Source of the DNA: Kineosporia mesophila
GTDB lineage: Bacteria; Actinomycetota; Actinomycetes; Actinomycetales; Kineosporiaceae
NCBI RefSeq assembly: GCF_021129235.1
Contig: NZ_JAJOMA010000004.1
Coordinates: forward strand, 248,001 to 312,000
Direction: 5' to 3'
DNA length: 64,000 bases
The position numbers and the translations under genes are program-made. Shown here piece after piece: positions 43,807 to 50,474 of this stretch. The stretch's first letter is position 1; each line of letters opens with the position of its first letter. The notes under the pieces are model-generated. The model was not told the origin of the DNA and did not search any database. It worked only from the letters and a program-made list of their open reading frames with translations.

Positions 43807-44444
43807 TCCGGATCCTGGTGGCGGACGACCACCCGATCGTGCGTTCCGGTCTGGCCGGGCTGCTCGAGGTGGAGCCCGACCTGACGATCGTGGGCGAGGC
43901 CGCGGACGGTGCGGAGGCCGTCACCCGGGCCACCGCCTTGCGCCCGGACCTGGTGCTGATGGATCTGCGCATGCCCGGTGTGGACGGCGTCAGCGCCACC
44001 CGCACGATCACCTCCACCCTGCCGCAGACCCGGGTGCTGGTGCTCACCACCTACGACACGGACGACGACATCGTGCACGCGGTCGAGGCGGGGGCCACCG
44101 GCTACCTGCTGAAGGACACACCCCGCCCGGTGCTGGTCGACGCGGTGCGCGCCGCCGCCCGCGGCGAGACCGTGCTGGCCCCACCGGTCGCGGCGCGACT
44201 GGTCTCCCGCCTGCGCACCCCGCCGGCCCCGCCCCCGGTGAACCCGCTGACGCCGCGCGAGGTCGAGGTCTTGCGGGCGGTGGCGCGGGGCCTGTCCAAC
44301 GTCCAGATCGCGCGCGAGCTGTTCATCGGTGAGGCGACCGTGAAGACCCATCTGCTCCGGGTCTTCGCCAAGCTGGGCGTCGACGACCGGACCCGGGCGG
44401 TGATGGTCGCGATGGAGGCCGGCGCGCTGCCTCCCCCTACATGA
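43803..44444 (+). CDS. NarL/LuxR-family response regulator
   Basis: This 213-residue regulator has a receiver domain with phospho-acceptor Asp54 in LVLMDLRMPGVDG and Lys105 in LLKD, then a LuxR-type HTH at about 145-205 (LTPREVEVLRAVARGLSNVQ). It starts with GTG overlapping the kinase. The four genes form one coupled operon, so the regulator probably controls the exporter. Its stop overlaps the convergent glycosyltransferase gene by eight bases. Confidence 0.93.
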   Translation: MIRILVADDHPIVRSGLAGLLEVEPDLTIVGEAADGAEAVTRATALRPDLVLMDLRMPGVDGVSATRTITSTLPQTRVLVLTTYDTDDDIVHAVEAGATGYLLKDTPRPVLVDAVRAAARGETVLAPPVAARLVSRLRTPPAPPPVNPLTPREVEVLRAVARGLSNVQIARELFIGEATVKTHLLRVFAKLGVDDRTRAVMVAMEAGALPPPT

Positions 44445-45720
44445 CGCCCACCCGCTGGAACTCGTCGATGCCGAGCTGGTTGAACGCCCCCTTGAAGGTC
44501 TCCTGCCGGTGCAGCTGGGCCAGCTCGTACCGCCAGGTCTGCAGGTCTTGCAGCCAGAGCGCGACGAACTCGGCCAGCTCGTACGGGGTGATCAGGTTCA
44601 GCCGCTCCTGCCCCGCGCGCACGGCCCGCAACTGCACGGCCGCCTCCGGGTCGGTGGCCGCCCGGGCCTCGAGCCGGCCCGTCACCTCGGCCAGCATCGC
44701 ATGCCGCCCGGCGAGCACCTGCGACCAGTAGCCCCGGTAGCGAGCGGGTTCCACCTGGCGGGCCCGCTCGGCGGCCGGACCCTGACCGACCAGTCCCAGC
44801 AGGACGTCGGCGGGCGATCGGTGCAGCAGGGCGAAGAGCCCCTCCCCCAGCACGTCTCCGAACTCCTCCCGGGTCGCGCGGCGCGGGTCGAACGGGTTGT
44901 ACGGCATCTGGTCGACGCTGCCGGGCATGGCCATGCGCCGGTCGCGCACGGCCTCCCAGCAGAACAGCCAGTCCTCGTTGTAGACGCCGGGGAAGTACGG
45001 CAGTGTGCGGGTCAGGTCGACCAGCAGACAGCCGCCGGCCAGGAAGGTGCCCTGCTCCAGGCCGACCACCCGCCGGGCGTGGCAGACCACCGAGTTGTCG
45101 GGGAACTCCTGCGCCGGCCAGCTGGCCATCGAGGCACCGGAGGGCCCGAGCATCGCCGTGGCCCGCAGAATCTCCCGGGCCGGGGGTGGCTGAATATCAT
45201 CGTCCAGGAACAATAATCGCCGCCAGCCGAGCTGGCGGGCGAGCAGCAGCGCGACATTGCGCTTGGTCGAGACGTCCACATAAGGCGCCTGACTCATCGC
45301 CCCGTCGGGTGCTGTTCGGGCTCGGGTCAGCAGGGCCCGGCCGGTCAGGTCACCGGCTGGCTCCCGGCGGGCCCGGGGCACGCGCGGGTCGTCGGCCGGG
45401 GTGTCGAGTGCCAGCTGCCGGGTGCGCAGCCGGCGCACGGCAACGGGCGGCTCGACACCGATCCGGAAGGCCACTCCCTGCCACCGCTCCAGCTCGAGCG
45501 CCACCTCGGCGACCTCGGCCCGGGCGCTGCACGCCACGACCAGAGGGCAGCCGAGTTCCTCGGCCAGCCGTACCGCAGGCCCCAGATTCCAGCTCGGTCT
45601 GCTCGCGGGCACCACGACCGCGGAGACCGAGCGCTGATAGTTCTCAGGCCAGTCCGAGCGGATCAGATGCGCATGCGAAGCATGGTGCGCAACCGGCCGC
45701 CAATGTTCCCCGTCCAGCAT
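44437..45720 (-). CDS. Glycosyltransferase-like protein, paralogue 1
   Basis: This 427-residue protein looks like a GT-A nucleotide-sugar glycosyltransferase: RSVSAVVVPASRPSW starts a Rossmann-type half, and LLFLDDDIQPP (171-176) gives the DxD metal site. Further motifs shared with the next gene are TKRN (152-155), FPDNSVVCHAR (206-216), YFPGVYNEDW (242-251) and VLGEGL. No signal peptide or membrane helix is seen, so it is probably cytoplasmic. Donor and acceptor are unknown. GGGG lies four bases before the ATG. Confidence 0.65.
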   Translation of the reverse strand: MLDGEHWRPVAHHASHAHLIRSDWPENYQRSVSAVVVPASRPSWNLGPAVRLAEELGCPLVVACSARAEVAEVALELERWQGVAFRIGVEPPVAVRRLRTRQLALDTPADDPRVPRARREPAGDLTGRALLTRARTAPDGAMSQAPYVDVSTKRNVALLLARQLGWRRLLFLDDDIQPPPAREILRATAMLGPSGASMASWPAQEFPDNSVVCHARRVVGLEQGTFLAGGCLLVDLTRTLPYFPGVYNEDWLFCWEAVRDRRMAMPGSVDQMPYNPFDPRRATREEFGDVLGEGLFALLHRSPADVLLGLVGQGPAAERARQVEPARYRGYWSQVLAGRHAMLAEVTGRLEARAATDPEAAVQLRAVRAGQERLNLITPYELAEFVALWLQDLQTWRYELAQLHRQETFKGAFNQLGIDEFQRVGVM

Positions 45721-45842
45721 GTTTCCCCGCCTTTCCCCGTGCGATGACAGCGGGTGGCGGGAGCAATGCGCTGTCAGGCCGAGACTGTCCGCCCTCAGCC
45801 GTTACCGATGCTGACGGGGACAGGGGATTCCTGGCAACCCCC

Positions 45843-47162
45843 TCAGTTCGACGGCGACTGCCAGGGTGCGCGCGGACTCATGAGTAGCTTCGCGATCTCC
45901 GGTTCGGGACGCCGGTCGCGTGCCTCGGACTGCAGGCTGACCAGCACGAGTTCCCATTGCTCGTGATCCTGCCACCAGGTTCTGGCGTATTTCGTGAGAC
46001 CGGGGAGGGGGATATCCCCGTGCGTCTGGAGTGCAGTGTTCATGCAGTCGACGACGCGCTCCCGGTCGGCGACCCTCTCCATGATGGTGCGCAGCAGGGT
46101 GCGACGTCCCGCCTTCACCCGCTTCCAGAAACGATTGCTCATCAGGCTCACGAAGCCCGGCCCGTGGTCTTCCACCAGGTTCATCAGGCCTTCGCCGAGG
46201 ATCTCCCCCACCTCCTCGGACCGGGCGCGCACCGGGCAGAACGCGTCGTACTCCTGCTGGCGCACCGGGCCGCCCGCGGCGAGGGCCCGCTGGTAGTTGC
46301 CCGAGCGGGCCAGCAGCATGATCATCAGCAGCCAGTCCTCGTTGTAGACGTTCTCCGGGAAGTAGGCCATCTGCTGGGTGCAGCGCAGCAGCAGGGCCCC
46401 GCTGCTGATGAAGATGTCCTGGGGCAGGTCGGCCAGGGGGCGGGCATGACCGACCACCGAGTTGTCGTCGAAGCCGACCAGCGGCCAGCCGACGGCCTGC
46501 AGGTCGTCGTCCAGAGTCATCACCCGCAGGGCGTGGGCCAGGTGCTTCTCGTCGAGCGTGGAAACCCTTTCGTGCGGGGAGATGTCGTCGTCCAGGAAGA
46601 GCAGGAACTCCCAGCCCAGGCGCTGGCCCAGCATCAGGCCGAGGTTGCGCTTGCGGCCGACATCGTTGACACGGTGCAGGGCACTGAGGGGGTCTTGCGA
46701 GGACTCCAGCCCCGGGCCCCAGTCGGCGTGCACCTCGTCCAGCTCGATGAGGATCAGTGCCTCGCCGAGCATCTCGCGGATGCTGGCGGGGAACTCCGGG
46801 GCCCGGGCGTCGCGGCTGAGCACGACGAACAGGTAGCAGTCGTGGGCCTGGGCGAGCTCGGCGGCGAAGATCAGGCCGGGCTTGGTGGTGAGGAAATCGC
46901 GGCAGGTCGGCACCACGATGCCGCCGCGCCGAGGGCCGCCCGGCAGCCGTTCGCCGAGCCGGGGGCCGTAGGCGCCCAGCTCGCTGCCCTCGGGCGGGAG
47001 GACGGGCCGGCCCGGACCGTAGATGCTGCCCAGCAGGCTCGAGTGACTGGCTCGGTAGTCGGCCGCGCGATCCGGGGCAGGTGCCGTCGTGGGCCCCGGG
47101 ACCGCGGGCGAGCACGGCTGAGTGTGCGTCCACGGCGTGGACGCAGGAGACATGAAGGTCAT
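45843..47162 (-). CDS. Glycosyltransferase-like protein, paralogue 2
   Basis: This 439-residue paralogue of the preceding entry has GGIVVPTCRDFLTTKPGL near 80, RKRN (170-173), LLFLDDDISP (189-194), FDDNSVVGHAR (231-241), YFPENVYNEDW (267-277) and EILGEGLMNL. The shared motifs occur in the same order and spacing, so the two arose by duplication, although overall identity is modest. The first 75 residues are Pro-rich and unmatched. The start at 47162 lacks a good Shine-Dalgarno sequence, and an ATG three codons later is possible. Confidence 0.65.
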   Translation of the reverse strand: MTFMSPASTPWTHTQPCSPAVPGPTTAPAPDRAADYRASHSSLLGSIYGPGRPVLPPEGSELGAYGPRLGERLPGGPRRGGIVVPTCRDFLTTKPGLIFAAELAQAHDCYLFVVLSRDARAPEFPASIREMLGEALILIELDEVHADWGPGLESSQDPLSALHRVNDVGRKRNLGLMLGQRLGWEFLLFLDDDISPHERVSTLDEKHLAHALRVMTLDDDLQAVGWPLVGFDDNSVVGHARPLADLPQDIFISSGALLLRCTQQMAYFPENVYNEDWLLMIMLLARSGNYQRALAAGGPVRQQEYDAFCPVRARSEEVGEILGEGLMNLVEDHGPGFVSLMSNRFWKRVKAGRRTLLRTIMERVADRERVVDCMNTALQTHGDIPLPGLTKYARTWWQDHEQWELVLVSLQSEARDRRPEPEIAKLLMSPRAPWQSPSN

Positions 47163-47225
47163 GACCCGGTTTTCGGCTCAGGCGACCGGCCGGGGGCGGG
47201 TCGCGGGCAGGAGACTCAGGAAGAC

Positions 47226-48428
47226 TCAGGAGGTACGAATTCGGGTGGCCGCGCGCCCCAGGTCAGGCGTCATCGTGGTTCCGGCGATGACCGGAACCCT
47301 CAGCAGCATCCAGAAGTCCTCGGATTCGAGGGTGTTTTCGAGCCACTGCTCGTTTCGCGAGCGGAATCGGGCGTCGGTGAAGGCGCGTACCGCGCCGTAG
47401 GTGCCACGGCTGAACATGCCGCCGAACCGGGTCGCGGACGCGCCCGGGTTGAACGGGTTACGGGTGCGCTGGATGATCGCGACGTCGGAGAGCAGCTGGG
47501 GCACGCCCCGCAGGTACTGCCGGTTGCGGCTGTCGGAGGTGCCGGCCACCCACTCGGGCCGGTGCGGTTCGCGCACCTGGACCTTCTCCACGTCGGAGGT
47601 CGGGATGCCCTCACCGTCGAGCAGCACCTGGACCTCGCCGTCGAACTCGATGCCGTCCTCGTCCCACTGCAACCGGATCGGCACGTCGAGCTGGTCGCGC
47701 AGGACACCCAGGACGTTGACCGTGCCGTCCGGCACTTCCTGGATGTTCTCGTCCACCCCACCGAGCAGGATGAGGTGGCCGGTGAACTGGTCGGCCGAAC
47801 TGACCCGGTCGTACGTCATCCACTGCACGTCGGCGGTCGGGTTCTCCGCCCGCACGTGACCGACCAGCTCGATCAGGGCGTCGATGTCGGCGTTACCGAG
47901 GTTGCGCACATAGTTGGGGTGGTGCTGGTTGGTGGTGTACTGCACCGCCGGCAGCAGGTCGGCGACCTGCGCCCGGGCATCGTCGTACCCCAGCTGCCGG
48001 GCGCTGAGGGGAGTGCAGAGAATCGTGATGGGCTGGCCGTCCGCGTAGTGCAGGAAGCGCCCGCCGAGCGCGCCGGTCTCCCGGCCGAAGTCACCCGGCT
48101 CGTCCAGAACCTCGTTGCGCAGTGCCCGCAGGTCTTCGAAAAGCCGTTCCCGCGTGTACTCCTCGTCGGGGGTGAGCTCTTCTTCCGGCAGCAGCCGGGC
48201 CACCGACCCCTCGATCGAACGCTCCGAGCAGAAGAACCGCGCATAGCCGTTGAGACGGTCTTCCGGAGGGACCGCCGATCCGCTCTCCCAGGAACTGATC
48301 AGTGCACCGCTCAGTCTCAGCGCGGTGGAGAGTTGCCGCTGGGTGACCACCTGCGAGTAGTGATGCTGCCGCAGGGACCTCAACCGGTTGCCCAGACGGG
48401 TGTTCGCTGCCTCGGCCATCTCCACCAC
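47226..48428 (-). CDS. XRE-type HTH regulator with large C-terminal domain
   Basis: This 400-residue protein has an HTH in the first 70 residues (RLRSLRQHHYSQVVTQRQLS, then SGALISSWESGSAVP). The rest is not an HTH: LHYADGQPITILCTPLSARQ, a segment HPNYVRNLGNADIDALIELV, TGHLILLGGVDEN and LLRVPVIAG suggest an alpha/beta ligand-binding or enzyme-like fold that I cannot name. It is the first of three minus-strand genes with the two glycosyltransferases. The spacer above its start holds palindromes that could be its operators. GTG 48428 or ATG 48419 could be the start. Confidence 0.7.
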   Translation of the reverse strand: MVEMAEAANTRLGNRLRSLRQHHYSQVVTQRQLSTALRLSGALISSWESGSAVPPEDRLNGYARFFCSERSIEGSVARLLPEEELTPDEEYTRERLFEDLRALRNEVLDEPGDFGRETGALGGRFLHYADGQPITILCTPLSARQLGYDDARAQVADLLPAVQYTTNQHHPNYVRNLGNADIDALIELVGHVRAENPTADVQWMTYDRVSSADQFTGHLILLGGVDENIQEVPDGTVNVLGVLRDQLDVPIRLQWDEDGIEFDGEVQVLLDGEGIPTSDVEKVQVREPHRPEWVAGTSDSRNRQYLRGVPQLLSDVAIIQRTRNPFNPGASATRFGGMFSRGTYGAVRAFTDARFRSRNEQWLENTLESEDFWMLLRVPVIAGTTMTPDLGRAATRIRTS

Positions 48429-48487
48429 ACCCCCGCTTCACTGAAGTCCGCTGGAACTACAGTCCACGCCGACTCATCAAGTTAACC

Positions 48488-48503
48488 ACTGAAGGGCTTC
48501 AGT
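48488..48503. promoter_or_regulatory. Palindromic operator candidate 1
   Basis: ACTGAAG-GG-CTTCAGT is a perfect 7-2-7 inverted repeat, 60 bases above the regulator start. A related half-perfect site CTTCACTGAAG lies at 48436-48446, immediately before the start. Confidence 0.55.
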
Positions 48504-48716
48504 CGGGGAGAGCCTGAGCGGAATTGAAACCGCGCGTGTCCTGCACTCTTCCTGCTTTGCCGGATACCCCGAACAATAGCGGGCGACAACTGTCGGGACG
48601 ACATTTTCAGTGACACCAATTGATGTCACCATGTGATCGAAAATGACAACGTTGCAAGGGTTCCTGAGCTTCGCAGGTGATGATCAGCAGTCTCGGGCGG
48701 CATGGCTGAATGGCAC

Positions 48717-48726
48717 TGAAATTTCA
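48717..48726. promoter_or_regulatory. Palindromic operator candidate 2
   Basis: TGAAATTTCA is a perfect 10-bp palindrome within CACTGAAATTTCAAG. CTGAA also occurs just before it at 48706-48710. Confidence 0.45.
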
Positions 48727-48800
48727 AGTTTTGGATCGAATCAGTACCTGAAATGGGTTGCCTTGAGGCTTCAGTGTGGTCAGACTGAGGTCAAGTATTT

Positions 48801-48810
48801 TTCAGCTGAA
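48801..48810. promoter_or_regulatory. Palindromic operator candidate 3
   Basis: TTCAGCTGAA is a perfect palindrome with no spacer, flanked by single TTCAG copies at 48770 and 48833. It is 137 bases above the membrane-protein start. Confidence 0.5.
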
Positions 48811-48946
48811 CACCAGTCGCCCCGCCGCTCTCTTCAGCGACGAGGACTGACGGACCGCAGGTCTTTCGAACACCTCTGGACCCCGCGGAATCAGCGGTCG
48901 CCCTGCGACCCGCACCTTGCTCGGCCGCACGAGGGAGGGGAACCCG

Positions 48947-49228
48947 GTGACCGGCTACAACGCGGGCAGCGCACCATCTCTGAACACACTGATCGCCTCG
49001 GGGGACAGCGACGGAGGGCAGGGCGTGGTCGTGCTCGTCGTCCTCCTGATCTGCGCGGTGGTGCTGGTGATGGTGAGCATCATCAGCAAGTTCCAGCAGC
49101 CGTTCGTGATCGTCCTGCAGAACCCGTTCAAGCTCCTGATGAAGACCGTCATGGTGGGAGTGACGCTGACCGTGGTCGGGGTCGCCGTCATCTCCATCAT
49201 CCTCGCGGCCGCCGGCACGCCGAGCTGA
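48947..49228 (+). CDS. Small two-helix membrane protein, unknown
   Basis: The product is 93 residues starting at GTG 48947, with GGAGGGG six bases before it. After a short Ser/Gly/Asp N-terminus there are two membrane helices: VVVLVVLLICAVVLVMVSII (about 27-46) and KTVMVGVTLTVVGVAVISII (about 65-84). The link KFQQPFVIVLQNPFKLLM is amphipathic. I know no family. It is transcribed away from the HTH regulator across the palindrome-rich spacer, so it may be a co-regulated partner of the glycosyltransferases. Confidence 0.7.
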   Translation: MTGYNAGSAPSLNTLIASGDSDGGQGVVVLVVLLICAVVLVMVSIISKFQQPFVIVLQNPFKLLMKTVMVGVTLTVVGVAVISIILAAAGTPS

Positions 49229-49445: not shown

Positions 49446-50474
49446 TCATGATGTGGTGTCGCTCCCCCAGGCCTCGACCTCGGCCAGGAGCTGCTTCTTC
49501 ACGTCGTCGGGCGCCCGCGAGGCCTCGATCGACGACGACGCCAGGTACCGCAGCCCCTCGTCGGACAGGCCGTGCACGTCACGGGCCGCCTCGTACTGGG
49601 CCGCCAGCCGCGGACCGAACAACAGCGGGTCGTCCGCCCCCAGCGCCACCCGGGCACCGGCGTCCACCAATTTCTGCAACGGCACCTCGCCCAGCGTCGG
49701 GTACACCCCGAGTGCCACGTTGGAGGCGGGGCAGACCTCAAGAGCCACACCGGCGTCGATCACCCGGCCCAGCACCTCCGGGCTCTCGGCCGCGCGCACG
49801 CCGTGCCCGAGGCGGTCGGGGTGCAGGGTGTCGAGCGTCTGCGTGACGTGATCGGGCCCCCTCAGCTCACCGCTGTGCGGCACGCTGGCCAGCCCGGCGT
49901 TGCGGGCGATCCGGAAGGCGCCGGCGAACTCCTCGGTGTCGCCGCGGCGCTCGTCGTTGCTCAGGCCGAAACCCACCACCGTGCCGGGACCCTCACCGGC
50001 GTACCGGGCCGCCAGCCGGGCCAGGATGCGTGCGTCCAGCGGATGACGCATGCGGCTGGCCGCCACGATGATCGCGACCTGGCAGCCGGTGGTCTCCGAG
50101 GCCTCCCGCGCGGCGTCGAGCACGATCTCCAGCGCCGGGGTCAGGCCACCCACGTGCGGGGCGTACGACGTGGGGTCGACCTGCATCTCCAGCCAGCGCG
50201 ACCCCTCGGCGGCGTCGTCCTCCGCGGCCTCCCGCACCAGGCGGCGCATGTCGTCCTCGTCCCGCACGCAGGCGCGGGCCGAGTCGTAGAGGCGCTGGAA
50301 CCGGAACCAGCCCCGCTCATCGGGGGTAAGGCGCAGCAGGTGATGCTCACGCAGGCTCTCCGGCAGCCGGATCCGGTGCTTCGCCGCCATCTCCTGCAGG
50401 GTCGCCGGTCTCATCGAGCCGGTGAAGTGCAGGTGCAGATGGGCCTTGGGAAGAGTGTTGACCGGGCGCTCCAT
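49446..50474 (-). CDS. add: Adenosine deaminase
   Basis: The enzyme (342 residues) converts adenosine to inosine with a zinc ion in a TIM barrel. PKAHLHLHFTGSMRP holds the first two His ligands, VPHSGEL and HPDRLGHGVRA contribute the third His and catalytic residues, and ALGADDPLLFG supplies the Asp ligand. The HLHFTG variant of the usual HLHLDG is one I remember from actinobacterial members. It is a single gene between the accessory block and murB. Confidence 0.9.
   Translation of the reverse strand: MERPVNTLPKAHLHLHFTGSMRPATLQEMAAKHRIRLPESLREHHLLRLTPDERGWFRFQRLYDSARACVRDEDDMRRLVREAAEDDAAEGSRWLEMQVDPTSYAPHVGGLTPALEIVLDAAREASETTGCQVAIIVAASRMRHPLDARILARLAARYAGEGPGTVVGFGLSNDERRGDTEEFAGAFRIARNAGLASVPHSGELRGPDHVTQTLDTLHPDRLGHGVRAAESPEVLGRVIDAGVALEVCPASNVALGVYPTLGEVPLQKLVDAGARVALGADDPLLFGPRLAAQYEAARDVHGLSDEGLRYLASSSIEASRAPDDVKKQLLAEVEAWGSDTTS

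Follow-up and report, generated by a model that had tools for sequence, protein, structure and literature searches.

A regulator and glycosyltransferase gene module beside a small membrane protein gene in Kineosporia mesophila and other actinobacteria

In actinobacteria, XRE regulators and small proteins form gene pairs of the DUF5753/DUF397 type, and two enzymes that return below, mannosyl-3-phosphoglycerate synthase and glucosyl-3-phosphoglycerate synthase, belong to glycosyltransferase (GT) families GT55 and GT81, respectively. MtdL (GT75; PDB 7xpr, 7xpu), a nucleoside diphosphate (NDP)-pyranose mutase, is an enzyme of antibiotic A201A biosynthesis, and its D87, D109 and R159 mutants are reported to have lost mutase activity (PMC9937993). 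The locus reported here encodes a regulator, two GT-like proteins and a small membrane protein, and lies within positions 248,001 to 312,000 of contig NZ_JAJOMA010000004.1 of Kineosporia mesophila, a stretch of 64,000 nucleotides that was analysed as a whole and is termed the window. K. mesophila is a filamentous soil bacterium; the window is part of a 364-kb contig in a genome of 7.8 Mb. An earlier note, made from the sequence alone, had proposed that these genes form an undescribed cassette, and all four open reading frames (ORFs) are present where it placed them. Its observation is confirmed and its interpretation is partly supported. The four genes, designated A to D, are one instance of a module that is spread over several actinobacterial families. 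The module has no match in Pfam, NCBIfam, PADLOC or PHROGs, and no description of it was found in a limited literature search, with subscription papers mostly outside its reach.

47226–48428, minus strand: gene A, HTH_31 helix-turn-helix (HTH) regulator, 400 amino acids (aa), GTG start (ORF list, Pfam, 54-member alignment)
45843–47162, minus strand: gene B, glycosyltransferase-like protein with a predicted GT-A fold, 439 aa (ORF list, alignment, model, fold search)
44437–45720, minus strand: gene C, second paralogue of GT-A type, 427 aa (ORF list, sequence comparison)
48947–49228, plus strand: gene D, membrane hairpin with a positively charged loop, 93 aa, divergent from A (ORF list, orthologues, hydropathy)
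48429–48946: divergent spacer of A and D, 518 bp, 11 CTGAA/TTCAG half-sites, putative operator array

The regulator and its glycosyltransferase partners

B and C are paralogues, as proposed in the earlier note, with 33% identity over 271 aa (E 2e-32), and the motifs RN, FLDDDI, DNSVVxHAR, VYNEDW and LGEGL are common to both in an unchanged order. A function of GT-A type had been deduced from the DxD site, and the GT-A fold is well supported for B by structure prediction. The AlphaFold2 model (predicted local distance difference test, pLDDT, 91.4; predicted template-modelling score, pTM, 0.90) retrieves GT-A enzymes first in a search of the PDB, with 94 chains at E ≤ 0.001; most of the 50 matches listed are GT-A enzymes, judged by title and known fold. 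The best match is mannosyl-3-phosphoglycerate synthase (2zu8, E 4.5e-7) and the second MtdL (E 9.3e-7), followed by cellulose and hyaluronan synthases and GpgS, the M. tuberculosis GpgS having a TMt of ~0.5–0.58 against the B model. Residues DDD191–193 directly follow the modelled strand 186–190, and are among the residues that are invariant in a 57-row alignment of the family, namely KRN, DDD, D233, S235, H239, Y273, N274, D276, Q302, E317, G319, E324, G325, W346, R353 and D399.

46644–46652, minus strand: KRN motif of B, residues 171–173, invariant in 57 of 57 rows
46584–46592, minus strand: DDD metal-site motif of B, residues 191–193, invariant in 57 of 57 rows, aligned with the DDD of MtdL
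46332–46346, minus strand: YNEDW motif of B, residues 273–277, with Y273, N274 and D276 invariant in 57 of 57 rows
45196–45204, minus strand: DDD metal-site motif of C (sequence and alignment)

We propose that B and C transfer sugars as soluble GT-A enzymes that depend on a metal. Among PDB sequences the GT profile matches MtdL chains alone at E ≤ 0.01 (best 3.1e-4), pairing the D87, RRN and DDD of that enzyme with D167, KRN and DDD of the GT family; this alignment spans profile positions 9–158 only and ends just past the DDD, before R159 and H287. In Pfam, the 57 GT-type proteins gave scattered sub-threshold models only. PF00535, the GT2 model, was matched by two of the 57 (best E 0.05) and its family threshold was not reached, and RGP (GT75) is absent from the 15 families listed at E ≤ 0.1. 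For TAGT (PF20691), five of the 57 matched at E ≤ 0.1 (best 0.015), below the cut-off (B, 14.5 vs 27.5 bits); for B and C themselves it is the sole match in the libraries searched. These TAGT matches centre on the DDD motif, and a phage TAGT protein ranks fifth in a viral fold search. DNA modification of the TAGT kind was considered on these grounds and, the matches being sub-threshold only, was not adopted as the main explanation.

A contains a DNA-binding domain recognized by Pfam HTH_31 (E 5.2e-7; 30.3 bits, above the cut-off of 27), a model that 42 of 54 A-type proteins match at E ≤ 0.1. The C-terminal part has no family assignment, as the earlier note had stated, because Pfam gives, beyond HTH models, only weak single-member matches across the 54 proteins (PaaX_M, PWWP and MAP70, E 0.027–0.089).

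48231–48398, minus strand: HTH_31 DNA-binding domain of A, residues 11–66 (Pfam)
47229–48047, minus strand: C-terminal domain of A, residues 128–400, flavodoxin-like, with a weak resemblance to BcsB (alignment, model, fold search)

This C-terminal domain of ~270 residues has D181, E187, P197, G223, D315, N324, G337, G342, G345, T351, N359 and P388 invariant in the 54 proteins, polar residues (D181, E187, D315, N324, T351, N359) being numerous among them. With the structure model of A (pLDDT 87.9, pTM 0.69), the best fold matches are BcsB chains (E 1.7e-4), followed by XRE-type HTH proteins at E > 0.05; the Pfam models BcsB and S_layer_C match none of the 54 A-type proteins. We infer that the domain is a ligand-binding domain of Rossmann-like fold. 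Its distant relatives have other HTHs attached, or none, which suggests a wider family of sensor domains; one of them matches S_layer_C at E 0.0077, under the cut-off. Proteins encoded at L135, L136, L137, L138 and L143 are such distant relatives, some of them fused to other types of HTH.

The pairing of A with the GT is well supported. A single-protein scan of genome contigs with B returned no relative and a single-protein search of 396 phylum genomes with the C-terminal part of A returned only its own genome; alignment queries were more productive and, in the class, more sensitive. The GT alignment query recovered at least 47 loci. Those that are named, among the matches listed, are from Kineosporiaceae, Micromonosporaceae, Pseudonocardiaceae, Streptosporangiaceae, Frankiaceae and Kribbellaceae, and the genera with the module, among the same matches, include Actinoplanes, Dactylosporangium, Frankia, Kribbella, Lentzea, Nonomuraea, Pseudonocardia and Kineosporia. 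The closest named relatives of the A protein, among the matches listed, are in Kineosporia babensis and K. rhizophila. Genes were called in 72 loci, of which 64 remained when duplicates (L079–L082, L086, L088, L097, L117) were dropped; in the trees, each duplicated locus is represented by its named copy.

A and the GT are both present in the same 10 of 13 genomes of the family, and both missing from the other three. Across 394 genomes of the class, the GT profile finds a GT in 10, and the profile of the A C-terminal domain has 13 strong matches in nine genomes, all nine of them GT-positive. At the genome level the latter search is independent of GT recruitment, the profile having been built from A proteins of GT-recruited loci. 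Ten of the 13 strong A genes immediately precede a co-oriented GT and the other three are ~1 kb away, on the far side of the GT. The sole GT genome lacking A (G641) has only a GT fragment, and the five weaker matches (E 2e-20 to 1e-3) are distant relatives, four of them in genomes with no GT. Co-occurrence in other actinobacteria, the survey suggested in the earlier note, is found for the A and GT pair in several families and not for D, which by sequence is restricted to the genus (13 family genomes searched). The second paralogue is of the C type in five of six Kineosporia genomes and is a different GT in the sixth (G002). In the called loci a GT is directly downstream of A in 46 of 57 A genes, a proportion that is biased because most loci were recruited through GT matches; A genes shorter than 280 aa were excluded from this count and from the counts of spacers and divergent neighbours given below. 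In 30 of the 64 loci a GNAT-type gene is close to the GT or fused with it (18 standalone genes of one cluster, 10 of cluster c13, and two fusions, in L106, by Pfam, and L087, by sequence), as assigned by Pfam for L083, L037 and L106 only, and by cluster or eye for the rest. In Prauserella muralis (L108:9683–11494), the open frame of the GT continues into a hexapeptide-repeat (LbH) acyltransferase, a candidate fusion, and in K. rhizophila (L038:11017–11757) a second, shorter A-type gene is located ~1 kb downstream of the GT.

The pair is also inherited together. Distances between A proteins and between GTs are correlated (r = 0.856, Mantel p = 0.001, n = 45), with shared species history contributing to r, and the A and GT trees have most main clades in common. 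Kineosporia has two lineages, one at the main locus and a second that groups with a Pseudonocardia sequence.

The divergent spacer and the gene facing the regulator

Palindromes are present in the A/D spacer, as had been noticed, and a new element is the putative operator that CTGAA/TTCAG repeats appear, from their sequence and distribution, to form in the spacers upstream of A.

48488–48503: 16-bp palindrome ACTGAAGGGCTTCAGT, 60–75 bp upstream of A
48706–48720, minus strand: TTCAG-N5-TTCAG direct repeat, kept in 5 of 6 Kineosporia spacers
48801–48810: inverted half-sites TTCAGCTGAA in the D-proximal part of the spacer, intact in 5 of 6 Kineosporia spacers, with the CTGAA half in 6 of 6
48436–48446: palindrome CTTCACTGAAG beside the A start, with its TTCAG half-site kept in 6 of 6 spacers

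The half-site occurs 211 times in 51 A spacers (23,005 bp; the spacer of L124, at more than 1200 bp, was excluded) and is present in 44 of them. On the frequency in 567 other spacers at these loci, 36 would be expected, and 100 dinucleotide shuffles gave a mean of 43.5 and a maximum of 59. The most common layouts are TTCAG-N5-TTCAG (16), CTGAA-N-TTCAG (13) and TTCAGCTGAA (8), and there are 6–7 half-sites per locus where the neighbour is cyclase-like and 0–3 at c32 loci. When the six Kineosporia spacers are compared, identical columns are concentrated in the half-sites (34 of 55 vs 125 of 463 elsewhere; Fisher p 6e-7), a footprint in which nine of the 11 half-sites of the window are whole in the five spacers other than that of G002. 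The sequence ACTGAAGNNCTTCAGT occurs without mismatch once in the window, at 48488–48503, and the CTGAAGnnCTTCAG core of this 16-bp palindrome is kept in four of the six Kineosporia spacers. The spacer elements GCAACGTTGTCA and TGACATcaattgGTGTCA, outside the TTCAG repeats, are also conserved in several Kineosporia species.

Gene D encodes 93 aa from its GTG, or 103 aa from an alternative TTG at 48917. Orthologues are present in all six Kineosporia genomes examined; D has no match at any cut-off in Pfam, NCBIfam, PADLOC or PHROGs. Outside the genus, genes for other small membrane proteins, or genes unrelated to D, occupy this position. Of 52 genes divergent from A, 36 encode two-helix proteins (54–114 aa; topology scored by hydropathy), five are c43 cyclase-like, five c32, one c10 and five are others, including in Kribbella (L104) a protein of the APH family (E 1.4e-18). 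The hairpin topology is consistent across the two-helix proteins: 33 of the 36 have more positive charge in the loop than in the tails, and the summed net charge is +91 for loops and −17 for tails; the three with no positive loop (L038, L115, L124) are from clusters c46 and c10, the members of which mostly score three to four helices. Assignment of c43 as a class III cyclase was not adopted, the resemblance being a motif seen by eye, with no Pfam match at E ≤ 0.01 (L092) or 0.5 (L110), no PDB sequence match for the L092 protein, and Lentzea copies lacking the first Asp. In Kineosporia an adenosine deaminase gene (window 49446–50474) is convergent with the hairpin gene, and several Frankia-type loci have a deaminase from this cluster next to A or the hairpin. 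The deaminase is not seen in most other neighbourhoods and was rejected as part of the module.

In the K. mesophila genome as a whole, TTCAG-N5-TTCAG occurs nine times vs two for a reversed control and CTGAA-N-TTCAG in four places vs one. Outside the A/D spacer, a triple TTCAG repeat (L154:7106–7130) is located within the 337-bp divergent spacer of a c13 GNAT gene and c47, which by eye is asparaginase-like, and is kept as a triple in three Kineosporia genomes (the window genome, G003, G005). A repeat site on C3, which also contains CTGAAGTTCAG, is in the 190-bp gap from a c32-type gene to a gene for a 505-aa protein (L153). The operon there (L153:4649–7810) encodes the c32 protein, the 505-aa protein and a small membrane-type protein, has four TTCAG/CTGAA half-sites in the gap after c32, and its three proteins have no credible Pfam match; the 505-aa protein resembles the product of the gene after c32 in L084, a Pseudonocardia locus, and the gap after c32 in L036 has three CTGAA half-sites too. 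Triple sites over 98 genomes gave 10 matches in six genomes, and the reversed control none. The triple sites of G043 and G078 and one of those in G005 are apparently no more than tandem repeats of a simple kind, the site in G004 and another two of G005 are beside unrelated genes, and the CTGAA-N-TTCAG copies on C4, C5 and C59 have no link to module genes. A regulon that includes, in trans, the GNAT locus and the c32-type operon is only suggested by these sites, because other repeat matches appear unrelated to the module.

A proposed role and the competing explanations

The explanation we favour, tentatively and at slightly less than even confidence, is that A is a ligand-responsive regulator that controls two divergent arms, the GT arm (A-B-C) and the hairpin arm (D), through the TTCAG repeats. 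The HTH of A would bind the half-site arrays in the A/D spacer and its Rossmann-like C-terminal domain would sense a small molecule; A perhaps also acts in trans at the GNAT locus and the c32-type operon with the same repeats. On receipt of the signal the GT, with the GNAT in many species, would add a sugar, and possibly an acyl group, to a small molecule of the cytosol or a precursor of the envelope, and the D hairpin would act at the membrane as partner of the GT or as effector. The outcome could be a modified envelope or self-protection. The genes may act together on a surface glycan or glycolipid, as the earlier note suggested. Envelope or small-molecule modification is ranked first, ahead of a conflict role.

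Several observations weigh against this explanation. Just four of the 11 half-sites of the window are whole in all six Kineosporia spacers, and TTCAG is over-represented throughout the window (121 vs 71 expected), at a density far below the 11 in 518 bp of the spacer. Most c32-type loci lack half-sites (0, 0, 0, 1, 3), and the hairpin loci L091 and L105 are largely without them. The triple repeat is closer to c47 than to the GNAT gene and is not a triple in K. rhizophila; the C3 site follows c32 and precedes the 505-aa gene, rather than being in front of the operon; four of the seven triple sites in the genus have no link to the module, nor do the TTCAG-N5-TTCAG copies on C15, C20, C30, C45 and C60. 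G010 has its full-length A on a different contig from its GTs, the A and GT trees conflict on L075/L076, and for 11 of the 57 A genes no GT was called immediately downstream, a number that includes at least four loci (L041, L092, L120, L122) at which the gene caller missed the GT. This caller was crude: no GT was called in L041, L078, L086, L098, L107 and L116, several starts were shortened, and in L092, L120 and L122 a GNAT-type gene alone was called at the place expected for the GT.

The same components could instead constitute an anti-phage or anti-competitor module, a possible but unlikely alternative, with A as sensor-repressor, the hairpin as a membrane-active effector, the GT and GNAT modifying a molecule of host or invader, and the changes of gene divergent from A, which varies between loci, as effector swaps. 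GT and GCN5-like domains are reported from nucleoside triphosphate (NTP)-dependent conflict systems (PMC7159879). All four proteins diverge faster than the flanking proteins when compared with K. rhizophila (non-synonymous divergence, dN: B 0.33, A 0.26, D 0.25, C 0.22, vs 0.07 for the deaminase and 0.08 for a response regulator; synonymous divergence, dS, 0.41–0.75), 3–5 times faster than the deaminase. In the comparison with the closest genome, G005, however, only B (0.043) and D (0.040) outpace the flanks (0.018, 0.025), A (0.007) being slower and C (0.020) similar to them, and with G003 the module proteins exceed the response regulator by no more than 1.3–2-fold. No dN/dS > 1 was obtained, so loose constraint could account for the rates, which fit either process. 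Also in favour of this alternative, a second cassette of ~5.3 kb (second GNAT, GT, A, c32, c46, c10) is present as a block in G005 (L037:7936–13254) and missing from the window genome, where 53 bp separate the matching flanks (L154:6327–6381; 92–94% identical); the window genome still keeps a GNAT gene and the triple TTCAG repeat. The main locus, in contrast, has a stable position in L039, L042 and each of the six Kineosporia genomes. A viral origin was not supported, two pattern-based scans finding no relatives on IMG/VR contigs, and tblastn gave no plasmid match for B and no phage match for C. PADLOC, applied to the window genes, returned HTH-level matches for A and a weak 1TM effector match for D (E 0.011), and nothing for eight neighbour proteins. 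An unrecognised actinobacterial immunity system, in which a sensor-repressor bound to the TTCAG operator would restrain an exchangeable effector (hairpin, cyclase-like, kinase-like or c32) and a fast-evolving GT that, with the GNAT, would glycosylate and acylate molecules of the invader or of the cell on demand, is an unlikely reading, which we place next after regulated envelope or small-molecule modification.

Protection from a xenobiotic or from the cell's own antibiotic, with A sensing a toxic small molecule and inducing a drug-modifying GT and GNAT, is doubtful. It would accommodate the GT, the GNAT and the APH-family kinase divergent from A in Kribbella L104, and in Kribbella there are also MFS and beta-lactamase-like genes nearby (clusters c7 and c35, labelled by eye), but the APH and c35 context is mainly that of Kribbella and the membrane hairpin is left without explanation. 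To our knowledge, moreover, the drug-inactivating GTs described are GT-B enzymes. The derivation of MtdL, the closest PDB sequence relative, from A201A biosynthesis (PMC9937993) is a further point in favour.

A role of B and C as GT75-type NDP-sugar mutases that supply a furanose donor to another enzyme is equally doubtful. MtdL is the only sequence match in the PDB at E ≤ 0.01 and the second-best fold match, and of the residues that align with the family (D87, RRN, DDD), D87 is one at which mutation is reported to abolish mutase activity, along with D109 and R159 (PMC9937993). The alignment, however, stops past the DDD, with the GT75 arginine and C-terminal histidine not placed, Pfam lists no RGP model, and mannosyl-3-phosphoglycerate synthase is equally close in fold.

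That chance or hitchhiking accounts for the proximity of otherwise unrelated genes is very improbable and largely refuted for A and the GT, which are adjacent in several families despite different flanks, have correlated distances and enriched repeats, even though the flanks are also syntenic in Kineosporia and D is linked to the rest by position and spacer alone.

The analysis defines two protein families that have no model in the libraries searched, one being the A C-terminal domain and the other the glycosyltransferases B and C. It joins them into a single module, to which a GNAT and a small membrane protein also belong in many genomes. With the predicted operator, the regulon becomes directly testable in any genetically tractable actinomycete that carries the module, and the function of the module, once known, whether it is phage resistance, detoxification of a compound or modification of the envelope, would annotate dozens of genes that are now without a family.

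Comparison with described systems

In the XRE regulator and small-protein pairs, as here, an HTH_31 regulator is beside a very small gene (A/D); neither DUF5753 nor DUF397 is listed for A or D in the library scans, and the small protein D differs in being a membrane hairpin. The flavodoxin-like domain of BcsB is the best fold match of the A model, but in A the domain is fused to an HTH and the TM-score is ~0.24. TAGT, the TET-associated glycosyltransferase (PF20691), has a sub-threshold match to the GT family and differs in that the score of B is far from its cut-off. Mannosyl- and glucosyl-3-phosphoglycerate synthases are among the best fold matches of B, at 12–16% identity and with no sequence-profile match at E ≤ 1. 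MtdL has both the GT-A fold and the D..(K/R)RN...DDD arrangement in common with B and C; the downstream motifs DNS..H, YNEDW, Q and E.G....EG of B and C are beyond the aligned profile positions 9–158 and have no counterpart assigned in GT75, and Pfam gives no RGP match.

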